DNA from: Liolophura sinensis
Lineage: Eukaryota; Mollusca; Polyplacophora; Chitonida; Chitonidae
Direction: 5' to 3'
Assembly: GCF_032854445.1 (NCBI RefSeq)
Contig: NC_088295.1
Span: forward strand, 85,790,644-85,854,643
Length of the DNA stretch: 64,000 bases
The position numbers and the translations under genes were made by a program. Shown piece by piece: positions 28,256 to 55,000 of the stretch (position 1 is its first letter; each line of letters begins with the position of its first letter). The notes beneath the pieces are model-generated. The model did not search any database and was not told the origin of the DNA. It saw only the letters and a list, made by a program, of their open reading frames with translations.

Positions 28256-28504
28256 TCAGCCAACCAGCGGTCCCTCGGTGAATGGAATGACCATGTCCTT
28301 CACGTTATGGAAACTACCATTGGTTGGAGCAGGTTGAAGTCCGAGTAACTCGCACATCAGAGGGTACAAATTTACTGTTTCAAACGGCGTCACCTGGTAA
28401 TGGCGTTTGAAATTCGGTCCCCTGGCTAGGAAAAACGGATGCATAGATTGATACCTGTTATCGTACCCATGGTTACCATGTTCCTCGCGCAGATTTGATT
28501 GATT
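28256..28504 (-). CDS. ENPP exon 3 (terminal)
   Basis: Acceptor tttattttacag, phase 0, stop TGA at 28256-28258. It encodes NHGYDNRYQSMHPFFLARGP, VNLYPLMCELLGLQPAPTNG and KDMVIPFTEGPLVG. Confidence 0.9.
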   Translation of the reverse strand, partial: NQSNLREEHGNHGYDNRYQSMHPFFLARGPNFKRHYQVTPFETVNLYPLMCELLGLQPAPTNGSFHNVKDMVIPFTEGPLVG

Positions 28505-31500
28505 CTGTAAAATGAAGTACAAAGAGGATAAATTATGTTGGCAAACAAAGAATACTGATTAAGATGAGATATGGGTATAGTGGAACTTTCTAAAATGTTT
28601 TGAAAAATGTTTTCCGTGATAAACTCTGGTGCTAAAACTACGCATACTGATTAAGATAAGATATGGGTGTAGTGAAACATTCTATAATGTTATCAAAATC
28701 TTTTCAACCTTTCTTCATAAACATGCCATTTTTGAAAAGCGAAAAAAATTCTTAATCAAATGTGCAGAAACTTTTTTAAAGAACTCTGCTCAAGTGTAAT
28801 AAGCAATTTCGAGGCAGTCCTTGTCGAAATTATTTACGGGTTTCATTAAGGGCGGGTTACTTGTGTATTACTTCTGACTATATGACTATAAGATGAAATC
28901 TGTGGTCATGTCAATCTGTATGTCTCTAATATAACAGAACCGGATTCAGGAACCAGGAACTCACTAGATAACGCCACTAAAACATTACATAAGCTGTTGT
29001 TCTGAAAAAAGCACAGGACGCCATAGATAACATCTTTGTTAAGGCATACAGCTGCCATATTCCTAACTACGTGTCCAAAACGTACTCTAGTAATGGTCCA
29101 GCCCTCATCTGCCACGGCGAAAACGTCCATCACCCGGCGGTTGTTCTTGTAGTGATAAAACTCAGGGATATCTTCCTTTAGGTACACTGTCATGTTTGGG
29201 TGGGCGTGTCTCAGACGATTGTAGAGGTCTTGAGCTCTTCCCGGAGACGGCCGAATATTAGCGATTGGACCAGAATCCACGAGGTAGAACCAATCAGCGG
29301 GTACGTAATCTAAGAGGTCGATGACCATAGTTTCCGTGTTGATCTCGGCCATCCCATGGTCGCTGGTCAGAATCACATTGACTTCGTTCAGGAGACCAGC
29401 CTGGGACAGCTGGTCGTAGATGTGTCCTGCCACAAGGTCCATTTCCATGATTTTCTGCCGTATCTCTGGAGAGTTTGGCCCGTACGTGTGGCCCGTGTGA
29501 TCCGGCTCATGAAAATACAGAGTGGAAAAGTTAATGTCTAGAGCTTTAAACCAGTCCACCACAGCCTCGGTGCGCACATCAAATGGCGTCTTCTCCAAAT
29601 AAGGCATCCAGATATCGGGGCGAACGCCTTTCAACTTGGCCTCGCTGCCCGGCCAGAAGTAGGAAGCGCTCTTCAGACCCTGAAGCTTGGCCGTAATCCA
29701 GATCGGCTCCCCTCCATCCCACCACTTTGAGTCCGTCGTGCCGAAGGAGAAAGATTCGTTAAATACCGGATCATACATGTGGTTACTGATGATACCGTGG
29801 GACTCCTCATACAAACCTGTACAGAAATTAGGGCAAAGACACACATGTGGTTACTGATGATACCGTGGGACTCCTCATACAGACCTGTACAGGAATTAGG
29901 CACAGACAAACATGAGGTTACTGATGATACCGTGGGACTCCTCATACAGACCTGTACAGAAATTAGGGCAAAGACACACATGTGGCTACTGACGATACCG
30001 TGGGACTCCTCATACAGACCTGTACAGGAATTAGGATACAGACACACATGAAGTTACTGATGATACCGTGGGACTCCTCATACAGACCTGTACAGGAATT
30101 AGGCACAGACAAACATGAGGTTACTGATGATACCGTGGGACTCCTCATACAGACCTGTACAGAAATTAGGGCAAAGACACACATGTGGCTACTGACGATA
30201 CCGTGGGACTCCTCATACAGACCTGTACAGGAATTAGGATACAGACACACATGAGGTTACTGATGATACCGTGGGACTCCTCATACAGGCCTGTACAGGA
30301 ATTAGGGCAAAGACACACATGTGGTTACTGATGATACCGTGGGACTCCTCATACAGACCTGTACAGGAATTAGGACAAAGAAACACATGTGGCTACTGAC
30401 AATACTGTGGGACTCCTCATACAGACCTGTACAGGAATTAAGACACAGACACACATGAGGTTACTGATGATACCGTAGGACTCCTCACACAGACCTGTAC
30501 AGGAATTAGGACACAGACACACATGAGGTTACTGATGATACTGTGGGACTCCTCATACAGACCTGTACAGGAATTCGGACACAGACACACATGTGGTTAC
30601 TGATGATACTGTGGGACTCCTCATACAGGCCTGTACAGAAATTAGGACACAGACACACATGTGGTTACTGATGATACCGTGGGACTCCTCATACAGACCT
30701 GTACAGGAATTAGGCACAGACACACATGAGGTTACTGATGATACTGTGGGACTCCCCATACAGACCTGTACAGGAAATAGGACACAGACACACATGAGGT
30801 TACTGATGATACCGTGGGACTCCTCACACAGACCTGTACAGGAATTAGGACACAGACACACATGAGGTTACTGATGATACCGTGGGACTCCTCATACAGA
30901 CCTGTACAGAAATTAGGGCAAAGACACACATGTGGCTACTGACGATACCGTGGGACTCCTCACACAGAGCTGTACAGGAATTAGGGCACAGACACACATG
31001 AGGTTACTGATGATACCGTGGGACTCCTCATACAGATCTGTACAGAAATTAGGACACAGACACACATGTGGTTACTGATGATACCGTGGGACTCCTCATA
31101 CAGACCTGTACAGGAATTAGGGCAAAGAAACACATGTGGCTACTGACAATACTGTGGGACTCCTCATACAGACCTGTACAGGAATTAGGACACAGACACA
31201 CATGTGGTTACTCATGATACCGTGGGACTCCTCATACAGACCTGTACAGGAATTAAGACGCAGACACACATGAGGTTACTGATGATACCGTAGGACTCCT
31301 CACACAGACCTGTACAGGAATTAGGACACAGACACACATGAGGTTACTGATGATACTGTGGGACTCCTCATACAGACCTGTACAGGAATTAGGACACAGA
31401 CACACATGTGGTTACTGATGATACTGTGGGACTCCTCATACAGGCCTGTACAGAAATTAGGACACAGACACACATGTGGTTACTGATGATACCGTGGGAC

Positions 31501-33090
31501 TCCTCATACAGACCTGTACAGGAATTAGGCACAGACACACATGAGGTTACTGATGATACCGTGGGACTCCCCATACAGACCTGTACAGGAATTAGGACAC
31601 AGACACACATGAGGTTACTGATGATACCGTGGGACTCCTCACACAGGCCTGTACAGGAATTAGGACACAGACACACATGAGGTTACTGATGATACCGTGG
31701 GACTCCTCACACAGACCTGTACAGGAATTAGGCACAGACACATATGTGGTTACTGATGATACCGTGGGACTCCTCATACAGACCTGTACAGGAATTAGGA
31801 CACAGACACACATGAGGTTACTGATGATACTGTGGGACTCCTCATACAGACCTGTACAGGAATTAGGACACAGACACACATGTCGTTACTGATGATCCCG
31901 TGGGACTCCTCACACAGACCTGTACAGGAATTAGGACACAGACACACATGTGGTTACTGATGATACCGTGGGACTCCTCATACAGACCTGTACAGGAATT
32001 AAGACGCAGACACACATGAGGTTACTGACGATACCGTGGGACTCCTCATACAGACATGTACAAATATAGAGAGACAGACGTATATAAATAGTTAGTTTGA
32101 ATAAGGAAATTTTGTGGGAAACGTCTGTAATAGAGGATTAACTGCTAATCAAGCAGTTACGGACAAACCCAGAAAGACTTCACACAAATATCAGGGAAAG
32201 CTGACAGGACTAGGTTTACATTGCACAAAATGACGGGCTAACAGTGTGAGGTTGTAGATCTTAATCTTCCCGGTTAATGCACAATTTACTAAGGGTATCA
32301 AATAACTGATAATAAGAGAATACAACTCTTCACTACATATTAATTTATCCATGTGGCGACATAAACACTCAAAAACAGAATCCAAGAGGTGAACTATTTA
32401 GTTTCTTTCTCTTGCATACGTCTCAATTTTTACATAGATGTATTCATAAAGTATAAGAGATAATTCAAAACCACTGCAGCGTGATAGCAGAGACTGGTGA
32501 GTTTTTACACAGTTGGGATTGGACTTTAGGTGGGAAATGGTATCCATTGTGAGAGGTATTTAAACACACGTTAGCGCCTCCGTGGGTAAGTAGTTTATGT
32601 GCTAGCGCAGCACAATGCCTCAGGTGTCTCTCACCAGTGCCGTAGCTGAGAGTTCAAATCCAATTCACCTTGCTTCGTCTCCGGTTGTGCCCGAGGTCTG
32701 TCAGCTGCCCACGGATGGCGGAGGCCGTCGTATAAATGAAACATTGTTGAGTGCGGCGTAAAACACTAATCAAATAAATTAATAAATGACTGTCTAAATG
32801 ATTAACATACACTAAGAAACAGAGAAGTGCAGGTAAAACTGACCGGTAGCCATGGTGTAATGGCAGGGAAATGTCTTGGTCACCATCGAGTTGATCAGTC
32901 CCCTGGGTGCTCGAACACCCTCCCTGGCAAAGCGATCAAGGTTGGGGGTAGGGACCATGTCCATGTAGTCCCACCTGAAACCATCCATAGAGATAAGCAG
33001 CAGTTTGTCGCTGTACTTCTTGGTGGTTTCGTCCGCCAGTATAACGCCAACCAGCAGGGCACACGTAAGCATAGCGACAGGGGAAGCCAT
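28256..33090 (-). CDS. Ectonucleotide pyrophosphatase/phosphodiesterase, ENPP4/5-like
   Basis: Three exons (32844-33090, 29086-29816, 28256-28504) join cleanly into 408 codons, slightly shorter than vertebrate ENPP4-6. The enzyme hydrolyses phosphodiester or pyrophosphate bonds outside the cell using two zinc ions. Residues 1-19 are a signal peptide (MASPVAMLTCALLVGVILA). Metal ligands and nucleophile are present: Asp36 in SMDGFRWDY, Thr73 (nucleophile) in TKTFPCHY, Asp188 and His192 in EPDHTGHTYG, Asp235-His236 in TSDHGMA, and His338 in NHGYDN. The protein stops at EGPLVG just after the catalytic domain with no visible membrane segment, unlike vertebrate ENPP4/5, so it may be secreted. Substrate cannot be told from sequence; the ENPP4/5 assignment rests on overall resemblance, with ENPP6/7 as alternatives. 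Intron 1 contains the 68-bp exon-derived array. Confidence 0.9.
28545..28700. repeat. Imperfect tandem duplication in ENPP intron 2
   Basis: Two copies of tactgattaagat[g/a]agata followed by tgggt[a/g]tagtg[g/a]aac, about 90 bp apart. Confidence 0.55.
29086..29816 (-). CDS. ENPP exon 2 (most of catalytic domain)
   Basis: 731 bp, acceptor tttctgtacag, donor AGA|gtacgt, phase 1 to 0. It opens with LYEESHGIISNHMYDP, continuing TMATG from exon 1. Bases 29775-29816 are the copy from which, or alongside which, the upstream array was built. Confidence 0.9.
29775..32062 (-). repeat. 68-bp tandem array built from the intron 1/exon 2 boundary of the ENPP gene (about 34 units)
   Basis: I count 34 units of 67-69 bp, including the genuine exon start. 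In gene orientation each has a pyrimidine-containing acceptor (cctgtacag), then about 42 nt matching the first codons of exon 2 (LYEESHGIISNHM), then about 26 nt of intron. The unit is not a multiple of three, so all frames rotate and stay partly open on both strands; these ORFs are not genes. Blocks of about 12 units are themselves duplicated (30,593-30,865 matches 31,408-31,680, offset 815). Confidence 0.93.
32570..32790 (+). mobile_element. SINE family 1, full length, in ENPP intron 1
   Basis: Head gcctccgtgggtaag, B-box-like gagagttcaaatccaatt, body gcggaggccgtcgtataaat and tail gtgcggcgtaaaacactaat plus AAAT units. It lies about 50 bp from the exon 1 donor. Confidence 0.82.
32844..33090 (-). 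CDS. ENPP exon 1 (signal peptide and nucleophile)
   Basis: Starts at ATG 33090; donor ACC G|gtcagt at 32843, phase 1. It contains the signal peptide, LLLISMDGFRWDYMD and TKTFPCHYTMAT. Confidence 0.9.
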
Positions 33091-53739: not shown

Positions 53740-55000
53740 AGTCGGCATATGGCCACAAACAGAGAGATAGCATCTAGCTTGGCGTTGACTGTGTGTATGT
53801 TAGCATATGCCCACAATGGTATTTACTGGTATCATCTGGTATTTGCTGTGTTGACTTATATTTGTATATGGTCACAAACAGAAAGAGCATCGGCATTGTG
53901 CACGCATAATGCATGCCCACAAACAGAGAGAGCGTCGACACTATGTTGGCATATTGTATGTCCACAAACAGAGAGAGCGTCGACACTATGTTGGCATATT
54001 GTATGTCCACAAACAGAGAGAGCGTCTACACTGTGTTGGCATATTGTATGTCCAAAAAACGGAAAGAGCGTCTACACTATGTTGGCATATTGTATGTCCA
54101 CAAACAGAGAGAGCGTCGACACTATGTTGGCATATTGTATGTCCTCAAACAGAGAGGGCGTCTACACTATGTTGGCATATTGTATGTCCAAAAAACGGAA
54201 AGAGCGTCTACACTATGTTGGCATATTGTATGTCCACAAACAGAGAGAGCGTCGACACTATGTTGGCATATTGTATGTCCACAAACAGAGAGAGCGTCGA
54301 CACTATGTTGGCATATTGTATGTCCAAAAAACGGAAAGAGCGTCTACACTATGTTGGCATATTGTGTGTCCACAAACAGAGAGAGCGTTGACATTATGTT
54401 GGCATATTGTATGTCCACAAACAGAGAGAGCATCTACACTATGTTGGCATATTGTATGTCCACAAACAGAAAGAGCGTCGACACTATGTTGGCATAATGT
54501 ATGTCCACAAACAGAAAGAGCGTCTACACTATGTTGGCATATTGTATGTCCACAACCAGAAAGAGCGTCTACACTATGTTGGCATATTGTATGTCCACAA
54601 ACAGAAAGAGCATCAACACTTTGTAGCATATTGTATGTCCACAAACAGAAAGAGCGTCGACACTATGTTGGCATATTGTATGTCCACAACCAGAAAGAGC
54701 GTCTACACTATGTTGGCATATAGTATGTCCACAACCAGAAAGAGCTTCTACACTATGTTGGCATATTGTATGTCCACAAACAGAAAGAGCGTCTACACTA
54801 TGTTGGCATATTGTATGTTCACAACCAGAAAGAGCATCTACACTATGTTGGCATATTGTATGTCCACAAACAGAAAGAGCGTCGACACTGTGTTGGCATA
54901 TTGTATGTCCACAAACAGAAAGAGCGTCTACACTATGTTGGCATATTGTATGTCCACAACCAGAAAGAGCGTCTGGTATTGTATTGACATTGTGCTTGTC
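53740..55000. repeat. 45-bp tandem array, about 25 units
   Basis: Units of 45-46 bp: cacaaacagagagagcgtc, gacactatgttggcata, ttgtatgtc. Well ordered from about 53,910 to 54,975 and decayed at both ends. Runs of 45-bp units give a long open frame (15-residue period ERASTLCWHIVCPQT), but 46-bp units shift it repeatedly, so I do not call it coding. Two unit types (cagagagagcg and aacggaaagagcg) alternate in places, showing block duplication. Confidence 0.92.

Follow-up and report, generated by a model that had tools for sequence, protein, structure and literature searches.

Tandem copies of an intron/exon boundary form a mirage minisatellite in an ENPP-like gene of the chiton Liolophura sinensis

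We analysed a 64,000-nt stretch of the genome of Liolophura sinensis (C1:85790644-85854643, hereafter the window), in which intron 1 of an ENPP-like gene contains a 68-bp minisatellite built from copies of its own 3' splice site. The gene lies on the minus strand, and all short coordinates are window positions. Arrays of this kind, known as mirages, were described in lancelets, and one is now seen in a mollusc. In our judgement the array is likely to be nearly neutral, a side effect of the genome's wealth of minisatellites that the gene tolerates rather than a device that serves it.

Tandem Repeats Finder (TRF) reported a period of 68, 33.7 copies, 92% matches and 0% indels at 29775-32062. Splitting the minus strand at the exon-start anchor gave 34 copies, the last of which is the genuine start of exon 2 at 29816. 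Each unit consists of 26 nt of intron end and 42 nt of exon start, with the intron part shortened to 25 nt in five copies (units starting at copies 5, 8, 20, 29 and 32 are 67 nt). The exon-derived 42 nt encode GLYEESHGIISNHM. The first-pass annotation of this stretch had described this coding content, a 68-bp array in an ENPP intron 1 and about 33 decoy acceptors preceding the genuine site, all of which agree, as anatomy, with the TRF result, the domain and homology matches of the gene and the copy table. It had also placed a splice site in every unit, which holds for 32 of the 33 upstream copies: copies 2-33 keep the AG, always within CTGTACAG, and the 5'-most copy (copy 1, 32055) lacks it and reads TACAT.

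Comparison with the real copy showed 14 differences over the 68 sites in copy 1 and 2 to 9 in copies 2-33. Among copies 2-33, mean pairwise identity was 0.927 and was raised at lags of 3, 11 and 12 copies, as expected of shared blocks; copy 34, the other boundary copy, was not an outlier except at exon position +3. A diverged copy 1 together with inner copies that share blocks is the turnover pattern of amphioxus mirages, which supports reading the array as one. Overall, the array showed the structural features of mirages that were examined: it spans an intron/exon boundary, its units contain splice signals, the authentic boundary is terminal, and the inner copies are homogenised to the exclusion of edge copy 1.

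A 301-base array query against the 609-Mb genome, scored for the best candidates only and with very common words skipped, gave 10 matches, every one within the array; thus no second copy of the locus was found among the matches of this query in the one assembly. Reliance on a single assembly raises the question of whether the array was misplaced or its copy number inflated, and the BflGb6 mirage of amphioxus is described in PMC3087553 as aberrantly assembled in a genome draft. However, the chiton assembly (GCA_032854445.1, originally assigned to Liolophura japonica, with the species since corrected to Liolophura sinensis; PMC12441733) was built, according to its data description, from PacBio HiFi reads (SRX20411988) with a mean of 8,347 bp at 14x (PMC11068029). 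The mean read of 8.3 kb is longer than the 2.3-kb array, the copies have diverged from each other, and exon frame and homology are correct on both flanks. Mis-assembly is therefore unlikely, and we give it very little weight. RNA-seq from five samples of Liolophura sinensis is listed as deposited in the same description, under BioProject PRJNA973839 (PMC11068029).

Choice and repair among the acceptors

The real site was not marked out by the acceptor itself. Across the 26 upstream nt, decoys 18, 29 and 32 have exactly its sequence, and their complete 68-nt units depart from it at just two places, exon positions +3 and +37. Pyrimidines at −20 to −4 numbered 12 of 17 at the real site; the exon 3 acceptor had 13 and decoys 2-33 between 10 and 12, so that the polypyrimidine comparison proposed in the first-pass annotation drew no distinction. 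Its suggestion that the real site has a feature missing from the decoys fails over the 26 upstream nt; in the exon, a T at +3 occurs in the real copy alone and all 33 upstream copies have C. Since decoys 18, 29 and 32 share the upstream 26 nt, any signal that sets the real site apart would have to lie in the +3 base, in the body of exon 2 together with its donor, or in the order of the sites along the transcript. RNA structure that hides the decoys was considered as well. Predicted folding of the last five units was no better than that of shuffled sequences (z −0.73), 23 of 100 of which were equally or more stable. The predicted unpaired probability of the acceptor 8-mer was 0.0085 for the real site, against 0.0013 on average and 0.0078 at the highest among decoys 2-33, and in predicted mean openness decoy 17 exceeded the real acceptor and decoy 6 equalled it to two decimals. 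Predicted folding would thus favour the real site by a slight edge at most.

We also considered selection on the decoy acceptors, given that CTGTACAG is an 8-nt run invariant in copies 2-33, and rejected it: 43 of 68 columns were invariant and shuffles gave P 0.49. A chance of 0.02 for the eight columns as given was not used as evidence, the columns having been picked post hoc.

If a decoy were chosen and the array beyond it retained, the computed insertions would range from 68 to 2239 nt. Contrary to the first-pass annotation, they are not all multiples of 68; the reading frame is preserved in 10 of the 33. An early stop followed in all 33 products, 18 to 115 codons past exon 1. The two bases after the AG were GT in 26 of the 32 decoys, GC in four, AT in one and CT in one; the 26 read CAG/GTCTGT (a slash marks the splice junction), an acceptor juxtaposed with a donor. 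By sequence, a used AG/GT decoy could be repaired without a scar: a second splice, with the decoy GT as donor and a later AG as acceptor, would leave nothing of the insert behind. Computed U1 pairing was −6.4 kcal/mol for CAG/GTCTGT; the true donor reached −4.7 and the junction that would be regenerated with exon 1 reached −3.6. The GT at +1/+2 was no better conserved among the copies than its surroundings, which speaks against selection for repair.

The first-pass annotation had offered a choice between a distinctive real site and noisy splicing, and this needs amending by a third option, in which a decoy is re-spliced from the GT present in most of them. Carried to its full extent, exon 1 would join early decoys, which are transcribed first, and their AG/GT junctions would serve as donors for hops to the real exon 2. 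The frequency of AG/GT and a U1 pairing no worse than that of the true donor fit such a scarless ratchet. We nevertheless consider it unlikely, as the GT shows no extra conservation, the regenerated exon 1 junction is weaker than the true donor, six of the 32 decoys would be dead ends, and the stepwise splicing is a prediction. If the ratchet were true, a single message could arise along a great many different splicing paths, and the time needed for processing would depend on array length. The locus would then be a natural tool for studying spliceosomal choice among acceptors whose 26 upstream nt are the same.

For the mirage as a tolerated by-product, we propose the following course of events. 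A 68-bp segment across the intron 1/exon 2 junction would have been duplicated in tandem and then expanded and homogenised, presumably by unequal exchange, leaving acceptor copies inside the intron and the last copy as the working exon edge. The spliceosome would mostly join exon 1 to this last copy, since no other copy leads into a complete exon with a donor of its own. A used decoy would often be repairable, a GT standing right after the AG and a second splice to a later AG excising the insert exactly; unrepaired products, with their computed early stops, would be lost through nonsense-mediated decay. The array may be tolerated because the last copy is mostly chosen and used decoys can often be repaired. 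Whichever course holds, the locus is a natural experiment in 3' splice-site choice among near-identical acceptors.

Repeats at exon edges elsewhere in the genome

Boundary-spanning repeats also occurred in other genes. Among ENPP paralogs, repeats at acceptor edges were found at C1:86820007-86820091 (37 bp), C1:86825654-86826070 (39 bp) and C7:7605082-7605519 (52 bp), and at donor edges at C1:86824939-86825215 (90 bp), C7:7591141-7591396 and C7:7610127-7610741 (88 bp each), the two 88-bp repeats probably being of common descent. The 39-bp repeats lie ~310 nt away from their exon, and a stretch resembling a short interspersed nuclear element (SINE) is found between exon and repeats (between C1:86825341 and C1:86825654), apparently inserted among the latter. 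The decoys of the 52-bp array have long pyrimidine tracts (TTTACTTTTCAG/TGATG) without GT after the AG, making it a contrast locus for repair. Two further ENPP acceptor matches were kept as doubtful (C1:86829219, 24/30; C7:7582168, 25/30). Mirages are probably also present in two P450 genes: an acceptor array at C1:13845903-13846088 has a 32-bp unit ending ACACACAG/GTTCT, with only ~5 nt of exon per unit, and at C6:4129651-4129842 a 28-bp duplication in two copies crosses an apparent donor.

We surveyed how often exon edges fall inside arrays (TRF period of at least 20, score of at least 60) in three gene families. Edges were the approximate ends of protein matches, the arrays were clustered, and the exons were not a random sample: 40 P450 exons were taken from 99 listed in roughly score order, excluding full-length, stop-bearing and most same-cluster matches and a few skipped by hand, and 20 internal carboxylesterase exons were taken from 87 listed, several from the same clusters. 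Expectations came from plain array coverage of 500-nt flanks for P450 and carboxylesterase exons and from coverage eroded by 16 nt for ENPP. ENPP paralogs, excluding the window gene, had 6 of 76 edges inside arrays against 11.7 expected, one of the six probably stemming from a doubtful match (C1:86845030-86845137, E 0.033). The P450 exons (both batches) had 3 of 80 against 7.1 expected, one of the three lying at the end of a gene instead of at a splice site; in the first batch of 20 exons, two flagged edges proved on inspection not to be boundary duplications (0/40). None of the 40 edges of the carboxylesterase exons lay inside an array (1.1 expected). Summed over the three families, 9 of 196 edges were inside arrays where 19.9 were expected.

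Exon edges are thus not favoured by arrays, occurring in them no more frequently than array density predicts. Such a distribution would be expected if repeats arose without regard to position, with some edges tolerating them and others perhaps losing them to selection. The absence of an excess gives no sign of placement for use, and from the survey we infer that near-neutrality, not a device, is most likely. That mirages are rampant in this genome or aimed at exon edges, which the ENPP paralogs had hinted at, was not borne out by the P450 and carboxylesterase exons. The chiton case, with its 33 upstream copies and others in the genome, suggests that mirages follow minisatellite load generally.

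The survey also bears on a proposal of the first-pass annotation, that noisy splicing tunes the amount of enzyme. On this account array length would set the share of unproductive transcripts and hence enzyme quantity, and it draws on the early stop produced by every retained decoy and on the intact AG of all upstream copies but one. The invariance of the acceptor motif is unremarkable, though (longest invariant run, P 0.49), edges in arrays do not exceed expectation, and amphioxus mirages are reported to be harmless. The proposal is unsupported, and we hold regulatory decoys to be improbable, even more so than a ratchet.

Several points weigh against the tolerated mirage as we have set it out. 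Faithful splicing and repair at this locus are read off the DNA itself and are predictions. Recognition of the last copy through exon 2, also predicted, would involve a long exon of 731 nt. GTCTGT is a weak donor, GT is missing in six of 32 decoys, and the variation at +1/+2 among copies gives no sign that repair is selected. Finally, two acceptor mirages in paralogs read AG/GA and AG/TG and are not repairable by the GT route, which rules out repair as a general explanation of tolerance.

Creation of intron 1 by the array is an unnecessary assumption, as several paralogs have an intron at the same site or within 1 nt of it (exon ends C1:86827312/86825341, C1:86843211/86843793, C7:7591322/7590377 and C7:7610668/7609305). 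In three others (C1:51288927, C1:48519390 and C1:46940645) the intron is missing and the exon runs through the site.

Gene and window anatomy

The three coding exons (Table 1) give a product of 408 residues with a type I phosphodiesterase domain (PF01663, 318.9 bits against a cut-off of 23, E 7.3e-95) and ENPP5 as its best PDB match (5vem, E 1.2e-106), which identify the gene as ENPP-type by homology. Within exon 1, ENPP5 TKTYPNHY corresponds to TKTFPCHY, a change from a conserved-looking Asn to Cys. Further along, the Asn of HGIISN, which we take to be an active-site Asn, is retained.

Table 1. Features of the ENPP-like gene and its intron 1 array, in window positions.
Feature	Position	Strand	Basis or remark
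Exon 1 (coding)	32844..33090	-	ends ATGGCTACCG, donor GTCAGT next at 32843; frame and PDB alignment
Intron 1	29817..32843	-	phase 1, GLY joined in frame; ~3 kb
68-bp minisatellite, 34 copies including real exon edge	29775..32062	-	Tandem Repeats Finder and copy table
Copy 1, exon-like 42 nt, preceding AG lost (TACAT)	32014..32055	-	copy table
Decoy copies 2 to 33, exon-like parts (starts 31987 down to 29884), each after CTGTACAG	29843..31987	-	copy table
Real acceptor of intron 1, CTGTACAG	29817..29824	-	gene model and copy table
Exon 2, 731 nt, then donor GTACGT	29086..29816	-	frame, PDB alignment
Exon 3, coding part including stop	28256..28504	-	frame, PDB alignment

Intron 1 also holds a SINE-like element at about 32560-32790 (start placed by eye) with the tail GAGTGCGGCGTAAAACACTAATCAAATAAAT; six tails of this type were counted in the window, allowing up to 6 differences, and ARAGORN called no tRNA in 32400-32900 around the element. 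Another large minisatellite (45 bp x 24.4, higher-order period 136 bp) lies at 53873-54974. A gene region of ~5.6 kb, resembling a CUB-domain gene as judged from translations, is duplicated in tandem (1100-3997/6688-9584 and 3998-6674/10355-13031) at 97-98% identity.

Comparison with known systems

The human interferon-induced gene 6-16 (G1P3/IFI6) reportedly contains a minisatellite with multiple splice donor sites. It resembles the chiton array in multiplying one exon-edge splice site, which is a donor there and an acceptor here. Ratchet points of recursive splicing have a strong donor of GTRAGT type; the chiton decoys have GTCTGT, in which position +3 is C and position +4 is T, and fall short of this. 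In Drosophila, ratchet points are described as juxtaposed acceptor and donor (PMC8605326), an arrangement shared by the CAG/GTCTGT decoys, whereas the chiton combines a weak donor, many tandem copies and a 3-kb intron, and any recursive use of it is predicted.

Intron gain by tandem duplication of AGGT, the Rogers model, is illustrated in PMC4974935 by ATP2A1/ATP2A2, fission yeast SPOG_01682 and potato RdRp, and the same source cites fission yeast introns across several AGGT duplicates and an experiment in which AGGT duplication made an intron. As predicted for the chiton decoys, the stretch between duplicated AG/GT copies can be spliced out with the message unchanged (PMC4974935). Unlike those cases, the chiton repeats sit in an existing intron, whose origin does not require the array.

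The closest counterparts are the amphioxus mirages, described as minisatellite-like repeats of intron/exon boundaries in Adh3, BflGb6 and BflGb9 (PMC3087553), with TnC and PGBD5 as further examples (PMC3902484). The Adh3 data and reverse transcription PCR of the globins are presented as suggesting that mirages do not interfere with splicing (PMC3087553), and the TnC mirage is likewise reported to leave normal splicing undisturbed (PMC3902484). Many, not all, amphioxus units carry AG/GT, cluster boundaries are excluded from homogenisation, the BflGb6 copy number differs between two haplotypes (6 and 3), and units measure 10-72 bp in Adh3, 150-160 bp in BflGb6 and 157 bp in BflGb9 (PMC3087553). 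The authors of that paper raised the possibility that mirages are a wider cephalochordate phenomenon and a source of new introns. No mollusc mirage was named in the titles and abstract openings of the open-licence PMC papers that our literature searches listed. The chiton array is like the amphioxus mirages, as far as these are described in the sources cited, in its tandem boundary units with splice signals, its authentic boundary at the array end, its many AG/GT units and the omission of an edge copy from homogenisation; it differs in its 68-bp unit, in having 33 upstream copies compared with 6 and 3 for BflGb6, and in belonging to a mollusc.

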